Assembly: GCF_009649175.1 (NCBI RefSeq)
Contig: NZ_WJPO01000009.1
Coordinates: forward strand, 1-64,000
DNA from: Rhodovulum strictum
Lineage (GTDB): Bacteria; Pseudomonadota; Alphaproteobacteria; Rhodobacterales; Rhodobacteraceae
Length of the DNA: 64,000 nt
Reading direction: 5' to 3'
The notes under the pieces are model-generated. The model did no database searches and had not been told where the DNA came from. It worked only from the letters and a program-made list of their open reading frames with translations. The position numbers were made by a program, and so were the translations under genes. Positions 50,198 to 57,319 of the stretch are shown here, in pieces (position 1 is the stretch's first letter; every line of letters begins with the position of its first letter).

Positions 50198-50226
50198 TTG
50201 CAATGCCCCGGCGCGGGCGTTACATC
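50198..50226 (+). promoter_or_regulatory. promoter of tRNA-Arg
   Basis: TTGCAA (50198-50203) and TACATC (50221-50226) have 17-nt spacing and end 10 nt before the tRNA 5' end, a natural position for a tRNA promoter. Confidence 0.5.
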
Positions 50227-50236
50227 CCCCTTCCAC

Positions 50237-50313
50237 GCGCTGGTAGCTCAGTTGGATAGAGTACTTGACTACGAATCAAGGGGTCGGGGGTTCGAATCCT
50301 CCCCAGCGCGCCA
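50237..50313 (+). tRNA. tRNA-Arg (anticodon ACG)
   Basis: The 77-nt gene folds as a standard cloverleaf. Acceptor GCGCTGG pairs with CCAGCGC, the anticodon stem is CTTGA/TCAAG with loop CTACGAA (anticodon ACG), and the T-loop is TTCGAAT. CCA is encoded. This tRNA reads CGN arginine codons after A34 deamination. An integrase remnant points at its 3' end, so it is an insertion site for mobile DNA. Confidence 0.97.
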
Positions 50314-50321
50314 CCTCTCCC
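50303..50321. repeat. att-like direct repeat, tRNA copy
   Basis: CCAGCGCGCCACCTCTCCC at the tRNA 3' end recurs at 50514-50532 with one mismatch (g to a at position 8). This is the pattern left by tRNA-targeting integration; the 3' end of tRNA-Arg would be the attachment core. Confidence 0.6.
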
Positions 50322-50334
50322 GCAATGAGCTGAT

Positions 50335-50523
50335 TTAGCGGCGCTTTTTTGTGGCGTTTGCACTTTGCGCGGGGGAGTTTGCAACGTTCTGTTCCTGTTC
50401 CTCCCCCATCACGGCCGCCTGGCGCTGAGTCGCGCGCGTGCAGTGCTCGGCCTCCTCCAGAGTGACGTGGCCCGTCCAGACGGCGATCTGGTGGGGCGTG
50501 GCGCCCGCCTCGGCCAGCGCACC
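50335..50523 (-). pseudogene. truncated tyrosine recombinase (integrase) remnant
   Basis: About 60 codons (ALAEAGATPHQIAVWTGHVT, then LEEAEHCTRATQRQAAV) match the C-terminal end of phage-type tyrosine recombinases, normally LAEAG.TPHQIAAITGH.T followed by YTRAADQ. The catalytic tyrosine is replaced by cysteine (HCTRA) and the upstream two-thirds is absent: beyond codon ALAEAG the frame turns into unrelated sequence exactly at the second att-like repeat. It points toward the adjacent tRNA-Arg and is a scar of a lost integrative element. Confidence 0.75.
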
Positions 50524-50532
50524 ACCTCTCCC
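50514..50532. repeat. att-like direct repeat, distal copy
   Basis: CCAGCGCACCACCTCTCCC, 18 of 19 bases identical to the tRNA-Arg 3' end at 50303-50321. It marks the point where integrase similarity stops. Confidence 0.6.
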
Positions 50533-50909
50533 TACCCAATTCTTGGCCCGGCAACCTGCTGATCCGAATCGGGGCAACCCGTTCATCCGGCCCGATTTTC
50601 TGCTCCTGACGCTCTGCGGGCGGCCTGGCACCCCTGCCTGAACCGGTTTCAAGCCCTCACAACGCCCCGGGGCCGCGTATCAGCGTCGCAGGGGGGCCGA
50701 CTCTGGATGCCATTGGCGTCGGGGCGCGCTATTGTCCCGCGTGGTCGGCGGCGCTGCGCTGTCCCGAGGGGAAAGGCCCCTTCGGGACGGGCTGATGCTT
50801 CATGGCCTGCGCGGGCGGTATCTGGGGCCCCCGCCGGAACCCTCAGGAGGACGTCCTGCCGTGGGGCGTGTGTGCTGCGCCCGGGCAGCGGACAGAAAAA
50901 GGATGGAAG
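50533..50909. other. intergenic region before the anchored cytochrome gene
   Basis: 377 bp between the distal att-like repeat and the cytochrome start. No convincing gene is visible; the open frames are shadows. It should hold the cytochrome promoter, but I could not assign one with confidence. An AAAAAGGA ribosome site lies just before 50910. Confidence 0.4.
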
Positions 50910-52295
50910 ATGGCCAATAACTCTCAAAACCTGATCCGGCTGATCGTTGCCGCTCCGGCGATCGGTCTTGCGATCGTCGCCGTGAACTACAGCTCTGCCC
51001 CGCCGCCCGCCCCGGCCCCCGCCGTCGAGGCTCCGGCCGAGGACGCGGTCGTCGAGGACGCGATCGCCGAAGAGGCCGTTGCCGAGGAAGTGACCGAGGA
51101 AGAAGCCGCCGAGGACGCCGCCGAAGAGGCGCCGGCCGAGGAAGAGGTCACTGAAGAAGCCGCTGCGGAAGAAGTCGTCGCGGAAGAGGCTGCCGAAGCG
51201 GTCGCCGAGGAAGCCGTCGAAGAGGCTGCCGCGGAAGAAGAAGTTGCGGAAGAGGCCGTTGAGGAGGAAGCCGTCGAGGACGTTGCCGAGGAAGCCGCCG
51301 TCGAGGCGCCCGCGGTCGACACGCCGGAAGCCGTCGCCTCTGCCATGAGCCTGGCCGAGCAGGCCGCTGCGCTGGCCGCGGAGTATTCCGACCTTGCCGC
51401 CCGCGCCGCGGCGCTTGCCGGCCTGTCCGCCGCCATCGTCGAGGCACCGGCGGAAGAAGCGGTCGCCGAGGAAGTGACCGAAGAGGCCGCGGAAGAAGCG
51501 GCTGCCGAGGAAGTGACCGAAGAAGCCGCGGAAGAAGCGGTCGCCGAGGAAGTGACCGAGGAAGCCGCGGAAGAAGCGGTCGCCGAGGAAGTGACCGAAG
51601 AAGCCGCGGAAGAAGCGGTCGCCGAGGAAGTGACCGAGGAAGCCGCGGAAGAAGCGGTCGCCGAGGAAGCGACCGAAGAAGCTGCGGAAGAGGCGGTAGC
51701 CGAGGAAGTGACCGAAGAAGCCGCGGAAGAAGCGGTCGCCGAGGAAGTGACCGAAGAAGCTGCGGAAGAAGCGGTTGCCGAGGAAGCGACCGAGGAAGCT
51801 GCGGAAGAGGCGCCCGCCGAGGAAGTGACCGAGGAAGCTGCGGAAGAGGCGGCGGCCGAGGAAGTGACCGAAGAAGCCGCGGAAGAAGCTGCGGCCGAGG
51901 AAGCTGCCCCCGCCGTCATGGCCGTGGCCTTCAGCGGCGATCCGGCCGCGGGCGAGGCGGCGTTCCGTCAGTGCACCACCTGCCACACGGTCACCAACCC
52001 GGCGGGCGAAATGCTGGCGGGCCGTGGCCTGGCGGTTGGTCCGAACCTCTACGGTGTTGCAGGCCGTCCGGCCGGCGAGGTCGAGGGCTTCAAATACTCG
52101 GCTTCCATGGCGGCGGCCGGGGCTGCGGGTCTTGTCTGGACCGAGGACCAGTTCGTGAGCTATGCGGGCAACCCGACCGCGTTCCTGCGCGAATACCTTG
52201 CCGATCCCCGCGCGCGTGGTGCCATGACCCACCAGGTCCGCCGCGAGCAGGAATCCTTTGACGTCTACGCCTATCTCGCCACGCTGGCGCAATAA
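50910..52295 (+). CDS. membrane-anchored cytochrome c2-like protein with long Glu/Ala repeat linker
   Basis: 461 residues. An uncleaved N-terminal membrane anchor (NLIRLIVAAPAIGLAIVAVN, about residues 7-27) is followed by about 315 residues of Glu/Ala/Val/Thr-rich linker, including eleven 13-residue units (residues 182-324). The C-terminal domain (about 340-461) is a cytochrome c2: heme motif CTTCH at 355-359, GPNLYGVAGR, then the likely axial Met439 in RGAMTHQV. It resembles R. sphaeroides c2 far more than cytochrome cy. It should carry electrons between cytochrome bc1 and an oxidase or photosynthetic reaction centre. The linker is extraordinarily long compared with known anchored cytochromes. 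Confidence 0.88.
   Translation: MANNSQNLIRLIVAAPAIGLAIVAVNYSSAPPPAPAPAVEAPAEDAVVEDAIAEEAVAEEVTEEEAAEDAAEEAPAEEEVTEEAAAEEVVAEEAAEAVAEEAVEEAAAEEEVAEEAVEEEAVEDVAEEAAVEAPAVDTPEAVASAMSLAEQAAALAAEYSDLAARAAALAGLSAAIVEAPAEEAVAEEVTEEAAEEAAAEEVTEEAAEEAVAEEVTEEAAEEAVAEEVTEEAAEEAVAEEVTEEAAEEAVAEEATEEAAEEAVAEEVTEEAAEEAVAEEVTEEAAEEAVAEEATEEAAEEAPAEEVTEEAAEEAAAEEVTEEAAEEAAAEEAAPAVMAVAFSGDPAAGEAAFRQCTTCHTVTNPAGEMLAGRGLAVGPNLYGVAGRPAGEVEGFKYSASMAAAGAAGLVWTEDQFVSYAGNPTAFLREYLADPRARGAMTHQVRREQESFDVYAYLATLAQ
51453..51881 (+). repeat. eleven 39-bp tandem repeats inside the cytochrome gene
   Basis: Each 39-bp unit encodes EEAVAEEVTEEAA, with variation at positions 4 (V, A or P) and 8 (V or A) and silent changes in several codons. 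Eleven full copies and a partial twelfth follow in phase. The array keeps the reading frame, so copy-number change would alter only linker length. Confidence 0.95.
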
Positions 52296-52334
52296 GGCCC
52301 ATCCGGCCCGCGTGGCCTGGACGTCCTGAACAAG

Positions 52335-52369
52335 AAGCCCCGTCCCGGCCACGCGCCGGGGCGGGGTTT
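52335..52369. terminator. bidirectional terminator between cytochrome and cbbO
   Basis: A 14-bp stem (AAGCCCCGTCCCGG with CCGGGGCGGGGTTT, two G-T pairs) with a 7-nt loop lies 39 nt after the cytochrome stop and covers the end of the convergent cbbO. The T run on one side and A run on the other fit termination in both directions. Confidence 0.75.
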
Positions 52370-54659
52370 ATCTTGTCAGACCGGCGTAAAGCATCGGCAG
52401 CCGTTCGGGCAGGCGCTCGACATTTTCCAGAACCAGATAGTTCCGCTGCCCGAAGATCTGCGCCACATACTGATCGGCGCGCGGATCGAGCGTCAGGCAG
52501 AACGGGATAACGCCCATCCGCGCCACCTCCTGCACCGCGGCGCGGGCGTCCTGGCGCAGGTATTGCGGATCGCGCGCGTCGATATCGGCAGGCGCCCCGT
52601 CGGTGATGACCAGCATCAGCTTCTTGTTCGCCGCCACCCGGTTCAGATGCGCCCCGGCATGGCGGATCGCGGCGCCCATGCGGGTGGAAAGCCGCCCCTC
52701 CATCCCGGCAAGGCGGGCCTTGGGCAGATCGCCCCAAGGTTGGTCGAAATCCTTGTAGCGCAGGTAGAAGACATTGTGCCGCCCGTCCGAACAGAAGCCG
52801 TGCAGCGCAAAGGCATCGCCGACCTTGTGGATCGCCTCGGACAGCAGGACGGTGGCGGCGCGGGTCAGGTCCAGAACGGTCTGATCCTGCCCCGCCACCT
52901 TGTCATTGGTAGATTCCGACAGATCCAGTAGCGTCATCACCGCAATGTCGCGGACCTTGCGCACGGATCGCATCATCACCCGCGGATCGGGCTGCTGGCC
53001 CATGCGGATATCGACCATCGCCTGCAAGGCGGCGTTGATGTCCAGTTCGTCCCCGTCCTCGAGCTTGCGGATGCGCTGTACGCCCTGCGGCTGCATCGCG
53101 TCCAGCAGGTGGCGCATGCGCTGGGTCAGCTTGCGGTTCTCGGTCAGGATCGCGTCGATCTCGGCCGGATCGCCCAGCCGCGGGCGCTTTTCCAGCACGG
53201 TCGCCCAGGCCGGGCGGGCCATCTGGATCTGATAATCGAACTCGTCATAGAAGACCGGGGGCGCGACCGGCTCCTTGCCTTCCTTCTCGTTGAAGGAAAT
53301 GCCGTTATCGTCGAACAATTCGTTCTCGGCGACCCAGATTTCCTGTGCATCCTCGCCCGCGGTCTCGACCTCGACCTCGTTCACCATCTCCATCAGCGAG
53401 ACATATTTGCGAACCTGTTCCGGGGCCTGCGCAAATCCCTTGTCCCAGTCGATTTCTTCGAATTCCCAGACATAGCGGTTGTCGTCGCGATAGGGCGCAC
53501 CCTGAACGTCGCGATACGCGGAATAGGGCCGGTCGCGCAGCCGATGGGCAAGCTCCAGCCCCAGATCGCGGGACATGCTAGAATCCGACAGTTCGGCCCC
53601 GGCGATCCGCTCCCGCGCCCAGAGTGCCAGCGGATCCTCGGTCGGCCAGTCTGGAGCCAGCAGGGCCAGCGCGATCCGGTCGAACTGCGCGCCCATCGAC
53701 CCGTCATCCGTGGGCGCGTGGAACCGCCGCCACAGATCGCGCAGGCGGGGAAAGCGCGCGATGGCCAGCGTTTCCACCCGCGCATCCTCGATCAGCCCGA
53801 TGCACGCCTGTTGCAGCGCGTTCAGACCATCCCCCGGGATCGCGGCCGTGGTCGCAACCACATGGGCGGCGGCATGCGCGGCGGCAGCGCGATAGAGATC
53901 GAGCCCCGGCACGCCCCGCCAGTCGTCATAGGCATCCGGCAGGTGCAGGAACCAGTCCGCGATGAAGGGGCGCACGCCTTCGCGGCTTTCGAAATCGCCC
54001 GCGGTGGGGCGCATCAGGAAATCCCGGCCCCAGAGCGCGCGCAGATACATCCCGATCCGGCGATGGATATCGACGAACAGCGTGCCTTTGCGTTCCTTTT
54101 GCAGCACGGCCTGCGATTCCGCGCTTTCCAGCCCGAAATAGCGCGTCAGTTCCTCGAAATCCGTGCGATGCGCCTGCGCGCCCCAATTGGCCCAGCGCCT
54201 GAGCCCGCCCAGCGTCAGCACATCCAGCAATTCCTCCAGATGCTCCAGCATGGGCCTCAGGCCGCGCGGGGCCTGGGCCAGAAGCTGGTTCAGCAATTGC
54301 AGATAGGCGCGAAACAGATCCGGGTCGGACAGCCGGCGCGATGCGACGGGCGCGGTCGCGATCACCCGCTCGATCACTGCCCCCGAGGTGCGCGAGGCAA
54401 AGCCCAGCAGCGTCTGGGCGAAATCGGGGATCACATCCTCGCCCAGATCGCGGGCAAGCGTCGGGGCCACCTCGATCCAGGTGCGCACGATATGATCGCC
54501 GCGCCCCATATGGCCCAGCGCGACCGCGCCCTTCAGCCAGTTGTCCAGCCCCCGCGGCGACAGCACCCGGATCGCATCGGGCCAGCACTGGTCGAGGATC
54601 GCGTGCTGGGCCTCGTCCAGTTCGGCGGTCAGCTCGGCGAAATCGGCGAGCGTGGCCAT
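52368..54659 (-). CDS. cbbO: CbbO, von Willebrand-type subunit of RuBisCO activase
   Basis: 763 residues. The C-terminal von Willebrand factor A domain has the MIDAS motif DLSES (TLLDLSESTNDK) and later ITDGAP; the N-terminal two-thirds is helical. CbbO links the hexameric CbbQ motor to RuBisCO through the MIDAS. Position next to cbbQ, S and L makes the call firm over related NorD proteins. It ends in the bidirectional terminator. Confidence 0.92.
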   Translation of the reverse strand: MATLADFAELTAELDEAQHAILDQCWPDAIRVLSPRGLDNWLKGAVALGHMGRGDHIVRTWIEVAPTLARDLGEDVIPDFAQTLLGFASRTSGAVIERVIATAPVASRRLSDPDLFRAYLQLLNQLLAQAPRGLRPMLEHLEELLDVLTLGGLRRWANWGAQAHRTDFEELTRYFGLESAESQAVLQKERKGTLFVDIHRRIGMYLRALWGRDFLMRPTAGDFESREGVRPFIADWFLHLPDAYDDWRGVPGLDLYRAAAAHAAAHVVATTAAIPGDGLNALQQACIGLIEDARVETLAIARFPRLRDLWRRFHAPTDDGSMGAQFDRIALALLAPDWPTEDPLALWARERIAGAELSDSSMSRDLGLELAHRLRDRPYSAYRDVQGAPYRDDNRYVWEFEEIDWDKGFAQAPEQVRKYVSLMEMVNEVEVETAGEDAQEIWVAENELFDDNGISFNEKEGKEPVAPPVFYDEFDYQIQMARPAWATVLEKRPRLGDPAEIDAILTENRKLTQRMRHLLDAMQPQGVQRIRKLEDGDELDINAALQAMVDIRMGQQPDPRVMMRSVRKVRDIAVMTLLDLSESTNDKVAGQDQTVLDLTRAATVLLSEAIHKVGDAFALHGFCSDGRHNVFYLRYKDFDQPWGDLPKARLAGMEGRLSTRMGAAIRHAGAHLNRVAANKKLMLVITDGAPADIDARDPQYLRQDARAAVQEVARMGVIPFCLTLDPRADQYVAQIFGQRNYLVLENVERLPERLPMLYAGLTR

Positions 54660-54662
54660 GGT

Positions 54663-55466
54663 CTAGAAATAGGTGGTGACGGCCGCGTCCAGCGCGTCGC
54701 GCATGTCCGGGTCGTCGGTGATGGGGCGCACCAGCGCCATCTGGCAGGCGGCGACAGCAGGAATGCCCTGCGCCATCAGCGACCCGGCATGGATCAGCAT
54801 CCGCGTGGAAATGCCTTCGTCCAGCCCGTGCCCCTTGAGGTTGCGCGCACGTTCCGCGATCGACACCAGCTTGTCGGCGTCCTTCGGGTCCACGCCTGCC
54901 TCATGGGCGACGATCTCGACCTCCACGGCATGGTCGGGATAGTTGAAATCCAGCGCGCCGAAGCGTTGCTTGGTGGATTGCTTCAGATCCTTCATCAGGC
55001 TCTGATAGCCCGGGTTGTAACTGATGACGAGGTGGAAATCCGGATGCGCGCGCAGCAATTCCCCTTTCTTCTCAAGGGGAAGCACGCGGCGATTGTCGGT
55101 CAGCGGGTGGATCACTACGGTCGTGTCCTGGCGGGCCTCGACGATCTCGTCGAGGTAACAGATCGCCCCGTGCCGCGCCGCGAAGGTCAGCGGCCCGTCC
55201 TGCCAGCGCGTGCCATCGGCATCCAGCAGGAACCGGCCCACGATGTCGGAGGCGGTCATGTCCTCGTTGCAGGCCACCGTGACCAGCGGCTTGCCCAGCT
55301 TCCAGGCCATGTGCTCGACAAAGCGGGTCTTGCCGCAGCCTGTCGGGCCTTTCAGCATCACCGGCATCCTGGCGGCATAGGCCGCCTGAAACATCGTGAC
55401 CTCGTTCGCGACGGGGCGGTAATAGGGCTCGGCCGCCACGCGGTATTGCTCGATCATCTCGTTCAT
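54663..55466 (-). CDS. cbbQ: CbbQ, AAA+ ATPase of RuBisCO activase
   Basis: 267 residues of MoxR-type AAA+ fold. Walker A GPTGCGKT at residues 40-47, Walker [11 protein letters not shown], sensor I region [10 protein letters not shown]. With CbbO it removes inhibitory sugar phosphates from form IA RuBisCO. The gene lies 3 nt upstream of cbbO and 53 nt downstream of cbbS. Confidence 0.95.
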
Positions 55467-55519: not shown

Positions 55520-55876
55520 TCAGACCGGGGTGCCGCGATAGACCACCATGTTCGCGCCCTGGCTCTGGCTGAAATTGTTGTAGCCGATCAGGCGGACATG
55601 GTTGTCCGGGTTCGCCTCGTGACAGGCCTTCAGTTCGGCCAGGATCACGTCGACATCGGTTTCCCCGAACATCGGCAGCTTCCACATGTACCAGAAATTC
55701 GACATCGCATATTCCGGCTCGGTGTGTTCGATGGCCGGGTTCCAGCCATGTTTCACGATCCATTCCACCTGCTTGCGAATCTGCGCGTCATCCATCGGCG
55801 GCAGATAGGAAAAGGTGCCCATCTTGCGGCTTGCGGGATCCGACAGCCGCGAATTGTAGTCCTGAACCTTGCTCAT
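55520..55876 (-). CDS. cbbS: RuBisCO small subunit, form I
   Basis: 118 residues with [47 protein letters not shown] and LIGYNN. Eight copies cap the octamer of large subunits. It follows cbbL after 21 nt with a GGGAGAGAGAAT ribosome site. Confidence 0.97.
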
Positions 55877-55897
55877 ATTCTCTCTCCCTCTGGGCGA

Positions 55898-57319
55898 TCA
55901 GCGGTGCTGGGTGTCCAGCTTGTCCACGGTGTCGAACTCGAACTTGATCTCCTTCCACGTTTCCATGGCGATCTTCAGTTCGGGGCTGTGCTGGGCGGCG
56001 GCGATCAGGATGTCCTTGCCCTCCTTCTCGATCTCGCGGCCCTCGTTGCGCGCCTGCACGCAGGCTTCCAGCGCCACCCGGTTGGCCGCGGCACCCGCCG
56101 CGTTGCCCCAAGGGTGGCCCAGCGTGCCGCCGCCGAATTGCAGCACCGAGTCGTTGCCGAAGATCGAGACCAGCGCCGGCATGTGCCAGACATGGATCCC
56201 GCCCGAGGCCACCGGGAACAGGCCCGGCATCCCGCCCCAGTCCTGATCGAAGAAGATCCCGCGCGAGCGGTCTTCCTTGATGTATCGGTCGCGCATCAGG
56301 TCGATCCAGCCCAGCGTCGCCTCGCGGTCGCCTTCCAGCTTGCCGACGACGGTGCCCGAATGCAGGTGGTCGCCACCCAGCAGGCGCAGCAGTTTCGTCA
56401 GCACGCGGAAGTTGATGCCGTGGTTCGGGTTGCGGTCCATCACCGCATGCATGGCGCGGTGAACGTGCAGCAGCAGCCCGTTGTCCCGGCACCATTTCGA
56501 CAGCGAGTTATGCGCCGCCCATCCGATTGTCAGGTAATCCGACATGATGATCGGCGTGCCGATCTCCTTGGCGTATTCGGCGCGCTTGAACATCTCTTCC
56601 ACGGTCGGCGCGGTCACGTTCATGTAGTGACCCTTGCGCTCGCCGGTCTCGATCTCGGCCTTCTCGATGGCTTCCTGGCAGAAATCGAAGCGGTCGCGCC
56701 AGCGCATGAAGGGCTGGCTGTTCACATTCTCGTCGTCCTTGGTGAAGTCGAGACCGCCGCGAAGGCATTCATAGACCGCGCGGCCGTAATTCTTGGCCGA
56801 CAGGCCCAGTTTCGGCTTGATCGTGCAGCCCAGCAGCGGGCGGCCATACTTGTCCAGCTTGTCGCGCTCGACCTGGATGCCGTGGGGCGGGCCGAAGCAG
56901 GTCATCACGAACCACAACGGGAAGCGCACGTCCTCAAGTCGCAGTGAGCGCACCGCCTTGAAGCCGAACACGTTGCCCACGATCGAGGTGAACACGTTGA
57001 CGACCGAGCCTTCCTCGAACAGGTCCATCGGGTAGGCGATGAAGGCGTAGAACGCATCATCCGAACCGGGCACATCCTCGATCGCGTAGGCGCGGCCCTT
57101 GTAATAGTCCAGATCGGTCAGAAGGTCGGTCCAGACCGTCGTCCAGGTGCCGGTCGAGCTTTCGGCCGCGACCGCAGCGGCGGCTTCCTCGCGGTCCACG
57201 CCGGGCTGCGGGATCACCTTGAACACGGCCAGAACGTCGCTGTCCTTCACCTTGTAATCGGGTTCCCAATAGGTCGACCGGTATTCCTTCACACCGGCAT
57301 CGTATTTCTTGGCAGACAT
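55898..57319 (-). CDS. cbbL: RuBisCO large subunit, form IA
   Basis: 473 residues. The carbamylated lysine lies in [20 protein letters not shown], the other active-site lysine in [17 protein letters not shown], and loop 6 in [13 protein letters not shown]. The N-terminus [20 protein letters not shown] and co-location with cbbQO mark green-type form IA (IAq) rather than the red-type IC of many relatives. It carboxylates ribulose 1,5-bisphosphate. AGGAGG lies 5 nt upstream of its start. It is divergent from cbbR. Confidence 0.97.

Follow-up and report, generated by a model that had tools for sequence, protein, structure and literature searches.

The closest described system is a cytochrome of Rhodovulum sulfidophilum that Kimura et al. 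(2007, J Biol Chem 282:6463-6472) reportedly named cytochrome c2m. This protein is said to have migrated at about 100 kDa on gels with a deduced mass of about 50 kDa, and a double mutant reportedly showed no phototrophic growth. The title of a 2007 paper in J Biol Chem, as cited in PMC5646944, presents a membrane-bound cytochrome c as a reaction-centre donor in R. sulfidophilum; beyond this citation, no description of c2m was found among the literature matches listed. Cytochrome cy of R. capsulatus (CycY) and cytochrome c552 of Paracoccus (CycM) resemble c2m in consisting of an N-terminal transmembrane anchor, a linker and a C-terminal class I cytochrome, and, as proposed for c2m, they carry electrons from bc1. 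The passages of PMC7876108 that deal with the R. capsulatus protein give its linker as 69 residues, state that fast transfer to the reaction centre requires the full length and that about 45 residues suffice for respiration, and mention that both c2 and cy of this species also serve respiration.

The R. strictum gene that we compared with these systems lies at 50910..52295 (+) of the window, by which we mean the whole 64,000-nucleotide stretch of DNA that was analysed, and its translation of 461 aa has a deduced mass of 47.1 kDa. The earlier note had read this frame as an anchor, a Glu/Ala linker of about 315 residues and a c2 domain, a description that is borne out by the translation, the hydropathy profile, the residue composition and the PDB matches. 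The N-terminal hydrophobic anchor, residues 1-28, is encoded by the 84 nt preceding position 50994 (50910..50993, +) and is likely an uncleaved signal anchor, as judged from the hydropathy peak: the top 19-residue hydrophobic windows begin at residues 7 and 8, with a mean Kyte-Doolittle value of 2.16. The first half of the linker (residues 29-146; 50994..51347, +) is rich in Glu, Ala and Val and contains irregular repeats. Beyond it lie a conserved island, residues 147-176, with the sequence SLAEQAAALAAEYSDLAARAAALAGLSAAI and Leu or Ile at each seventh residue (51348..51437, +), a 39-bp tandem array encoding 13-residue units (51450..51903, +; 11.6 copies, 92% matches) and the cytochrome c2 domain, residues 343-461 (51936..52292, +). 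Most c2m orthologues begin alike, with M(A/S)NN.QNLIRLI, and because the N-termini are so similar the start codon at 50910 is supported; the mean majority fraction of the anchor is 0.83 in the alignment of 14 complete orthologues. The N-terminal hydrophobic segment suggests that c2m would be retained in the membrane. A simple scan of 50200-52600 found no sigma-70 promoter-like or terminator-like site.

The best PDB matches of the heme domain are cytochromes c2, headed by that of R. sphaeroides (1cxa, E 1.5e-34), and in the 63-row tree described below the domain is again closest to c2, in agreement with the c2-like character claimed for it previously. The CxxCH motif (CTTCH, residues 355-359) and Met439, both named in that claim, are present, and by its position in the family Met439 is the predicted axial heme ligand. 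General models score the domain low: Pfam Cytochrom_C gives 19.8 bits, just under its cut-off of 21.3, and the domain is absent from the 15 matches of this model in the R. strictum genome; the NCBIfam cytochrome c-550 model gives 51.2 against a cut-off of 240. The soluble c2 of R. strictum is 68% identical to the c2m domain, with which it shares the heme domain, but it has a signal-peptide-like start and no linker. The c2m domain of R. sulfidophilum DSM 1374 is 64% identical to that of R. strictum.

The c2m gene of DSM 1374, which we take to be that of the 2007 cytochrome c2m, encodes a protein of 504 aa and 49.9 kDa with a 356-residue acidic linker. We identified this genome (G013) by the first 6000 bases of its second contig, which are 100% identical to NZ_CP015419.1, and the part of PMC3738892 that concerns it equates DSM 1374 with R. 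sulfidophilum strain W4. The two proteins share a near-identical anchor, MSNNSQNLIRLIVAAPALG, as well as the Glu/Ala linker, the island and the c2 domain, and a convergent cbb cluster lies near the gene in both species. They differ in that the R. strictum linker repeats a 13-mer whereas that of R. sulfidophilum has no strong long repeat (best lag 5, 0.34), and in that the distance from the end of the heme domain to the VWA gene is about 1.2 kb in DSM 1374 and about 0.1 kb in R. strictum. On these sequence features the R. strictum gene is taken as the orthologue of DSM 1374 c2m: the protein has a c2-type domain with CxxCH and Met, a hydrophobic N-terminus, a long Glu/Ala linker and a mass of about 50 kDa. 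It differs from cy and c552 in that its domain is closest to c2 and its linker has about 314 residues rather than tens; set against the 69 residues of R. capsulatus cy (as given in PMC7876108), the linker is indeed far longer, as the earlier note had stated. The c2m architecture thus looks like one already known rather than a discovery, with R. strictum adding another instance. The proposal of an anchored c2-type carrier stands for the architecture as read from the sequence, but its novelty does not, given the 2007 report on R. sulfidophilum cited in PMC5646944.

Nor is the architecture unusual within the genus. All 16 Rhodovulum genomes searched, R. strictum and R. sulfidophilum DSM 1374 included, encode a closely similar c2 domain attached to a linker. 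The anchor and linker were read in all of them, 14 as complete copies, one split over two contigs (G010) and one with a 100-N gap in the repeats (G005). In the 14 complete copies the linker measures 307-426 residues, with a mean of 360, so the length that had been considered special is shared by the relatives, which refutes it by the criterion that the earlier note itself had set; since the linker is long throughout the genus, the 'giant' tether is the genus norm. This indicates that the long-tether c2m is a form found genus-wide rather than peculiar to a single strain. In two of the 16 assemblies the repeats cause a break or a gap (L102 of G010 and L098:5572-5671 of G005), so repeat counts taken from short-read assemblies may be unreliable.

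Across the family, c2 at E <= 1e-22 is present in 228 of 295 genomes (R. strictum included), and among the matches listed none from another sampled genus showed a long-tether c2m. Twelve long c2-bearing open frames of other genera, namely the 10 frames of at least 383 aa among the matches listed and 2 others, were read by eye and proved to be ordinary signal-peptide c2 genes with open GC-rich DNA upstream. A tblastn search of plasmids with a shortened c2m query returned 33 records, none of which covered 80% of the query, and the best 20 of the 33 match the heme domain alone.

Downstream of c2m in R. strictum, and convergent with it, are a cbbO-like gene for a VWA-domain protein (52368..54659, -; PF00092), cbbQ (54663..55466, -; PF08406) and the RuBisCO genes cbbS (55520-55876) and cbbL (55898-57319), open reading frames that together span 55520..57319 (-) and whose names were recognised by eye. 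The VWA gene, cbbQ, cbbS and cbbL are convergent with c2m in 9 of the 12 genomes examined, a count that leaves out G002, G008 (Rhodovulum sp. MB263), G010 and G015; for G004, G005 and G009 (Rhodovulum sp. P5), no cbb cluster was found in the flanking sequence retrieved. Upstream of c2m, a tRNA-Arg gene (50237-50313) is followed by an open reading frame at 50335-50652 (-) that by eye resembles the end of a tyrosine recombinase and has no Pfam match.

The linker of R. strictum c2m, residues 29-342, consists of about 314 residues (E113 A112 V37 T14 P12 D6 R1 K0) with a net charge of -118. The eleven 13-residue units that had been noticed earlier are real: they follow the pattern AEE[VA]TEEAAEEAx, begin at residues 186-316 and are confined to the second half of the linker, the non-repeat island at 147-176 dividing the halves. 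Comparing residues 181-341 with themselves at lag 13 gives an identity of 0.885, whereas 2000 shuffles averaged 0.33 and never exceeded 0.48. Between species, both the repeat unit and the repeat number change. Among the 13 of 14 complete copies scanned, the best repeat lag is 13 in R. strictum, G014 and G012, 14 in G004, 10 in G001, G007 and G009, 15 in G011, and 5 in G003, G006, G008, G013 and G015. Of six related pairs, five show higher similarity in the heme domain than in the linker, and only G006-G015 does not (0.925 vs 0.938). Each related pair has 46-80 gap positions in the linkers and none in the heme domains. Five of the 14 complete linkers contain a TREALTGSEEPLIGGD-like motif, which precedes the island in G011 (L026) and follows it in the other four (L029 of G006, L030 of G008, L031 of G013 and L032 of G015); since its position relative to the island varies, pieces of the linker move. 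Net charge ranges from -89 to -136 (13 copies) with almost no Lys or Arg, and the deduced masses of the 14 complete proteins range from 46.2 to 56.2 kDa. The conserved properties of the linker are its length and its negative charge, and selection appears to keep both roughly constant as the repeat sequence turns over.

Besides c2m, every one of the 16 Rhodovulum genomes encodes a soluble c2, PufC and a protein matching the cy/c552 type (E <= 1e-20). The cy/c552 alignments start between residues 1 and 18 of the R. strictum query, which is anchored, with the R. strictum protein being the only one read; its gene (G000:C7, L008) has PDB matches to Paracoccus c552 and R. capsulatus cy. By eye, R. 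strictum PufC carries three CxxCH motifs, as expected of a triheme subunit, and the portion of PMC6256444 that bears on this subject describes the triheme PufC subunit as constant in Rhodovulum. We built a heme-domain tree of 63 rows (32 from the genus, the 29 closest found in other genera and 2 from the PDB), in which the Rhodovulum c2m and soluble c2 form one group (99/98). Fourteen c2m, those of R. strictum and DSM 1374 among them, group together (94/83, and 86/83 in a second tree). The c2m of G004 pairs with its own soluble c2 (84/90; 81/85), that of G005 is unplaced, and the AU test does not reject a single clade holding all 16 (p-AU 0.329). From these trees we infer a duplication close to the root of the genus, probably followed by gene conversion, and because G004 shares the anchor and the island, a single origin of the tether is favoured. 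In the soluble c2 of G015, G006, G008 and G013 (L045, L046, L089 and L090) the heme motif is preceded by an additional residue, FNK(I/V)CQTCH, and these four share a long branch of 0.45.

We are confident in reading the R. strictum protein as a cytochrome c2m orthologue that would act as an anchored, flexible shuttle, working beside soluble c2 to carry electrons from bc1 to PufC. A c2 duplicate would have gained a signal anchor and an acidic, mostly unstructured linker of 300-430 residues. The anchor would fix the protein to the periplasmic face of the membrane and the linker would let the heme head range over tens of nanometres, so that the head could be reduced by cytochrome c1 of the bc1 complex and in turn pass electrons to PufC, the reaction-centre cytochrome subunit, alongside soluble c2. 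For R. strictum both this electron path and the function are those expected from orthology, and the disorder of the linker is likewise probable. The earlier note had preferred a long, acidic helical or rod-like tether that determines how far the heme domain reaches. A rigid rod of this kind draws on the abundance of the helix formers Glu and Ala and on the low proline content of the R. strictum linker (3.8%, with 121 consecutive residues free of proline), which extends to its two nearest relatives (3.8-5.1% across the three); in addition, an AlphaFold model of c2m made with three close orthologues has helices at residues 82-131 and 139-177. However, the mean pLDDT of that model is 41, the helical blocks reach 42-63, and the 13-residue array is drawn as coil, also at low confidence. 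Proline makes up 6.7% of the G004 linker and 8.5-10.5% of those in the ten remaining complete copies, so that it exceeds 6.5% in 11 of the 14, and the longest proline-free runs in these are 41-73 residues. Because most linkers are proline-rich, a rigid helix is unlikely as a conserved property. The negative charge noted above is, moreover, scarcely offset by Lys or Arg, and simple arithmetic gives an arm of about 314 residues a length of about 47 nm if it were one straight helix (1.5 A per residue), or about 113 nm if fully extended. The periplasm is usually narrower than 47 nm. The rod is therefore disfavoured as a conserved trait, and we consider it rather unlikely as an account of the linker.

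It is quite improbable, from the N-terminal sequences, that the hydrophobic segment would instead be a cleaved signal peptide that releases a soluble or secreted acidic cytochrome. The hydrophobic stretch is short, an A-P-A motif stands at about residues 15-17 in 13 of the 14 copies, and some copies have further A-x-A motifs after the segment; yet the A-P-A is itself part of the hydrophobic segment, with no more than about six hydrophobic residues before it, the position of the A-x-A motifs further on is not conserved, and the R. sulfidophilum protein is described as membrane-bound in the title cited in PMC5646944. The tether could also serve mainly respiration, through the oxidases, or a chain linked to carbon fixation, and not the reaction centre. 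The proximity of c2m to cbbLSQO in 9 of 12 genomes would fit the latter, and the statement in PMC7876108 that c2 and cy of R. capsulatus serve respiration too would fit the former, but a cy/c552-type match, able to serve oxidases, is also found in 16 of 16 genomes, and we regard this role as very doubtful. Since PufC likewise occurs in all 16, the long-tether trait is inseparable from phototrophy in this set.

The part of the linker that stands apart from the turnover of the repeats is the leucine island, a feature that had escaped the earlier note. Its mean majority fraction in the alignment of 14 complete proteins is 0.90 vs 0.80 for the heme domain; the figure is 0.67 for most of the linker before it and 0.64 for most of that after it, and the best 20-residue window of the linker outside the island, in low-complexity repeat, reaches 0.81. 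In all 16 genomes, Leu is invariant at the core positions 9, 16 and 23 of the island; position 2 has Leu in 15 of them and Val in the remaining one, 15 have Leu, Ile or Met at position 30 where the last has Ala, and both Tyr13 and a Gly at position 25 are invariant. The island of G005, which was spotted and set in register by eye and which the R. strictum island as query did not retrieve, is otherwise diverged, yet it keeps Leu at the first four heptad positions. At E <= 1e-5, the island profile matched only the R. strictum genome among the 295 genomes of the family. The highest hydrophobic moments of the linker are found in windows starting at residues 138-141, which overlap the island.

A heptad pattern of leucines possibly fits a short coiled coil, and we tentatively suggest that the island might pair two c2m chains, or might bind one fixed partner (bc1 or PufC), in this way. 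Against a coiled coil, the hydrophobic moment of the island is unexceptional for its composition (456 of 5000 shuffles reach the same value), the Gly at position 25 is invariant, and the AlphaFold helix is of low confidence. If the suggestion is true, c2m would be a two-headed or docked carrier in which fast-evolving acidic arms, whose length is selected, flank the island.

What this analysis adds to the known c2m is testable: the linker persists in length and acidity although its repeats turn over, and a single heptad island is conserved throughout the 16 genomes searched. With three carriers in one genus, namely soluble c2, a cy/c552-type cytochrome and the long-linker c2m, Rhodovulum offers a natural system for the effects of tether length on photosynthetic electron transfer.
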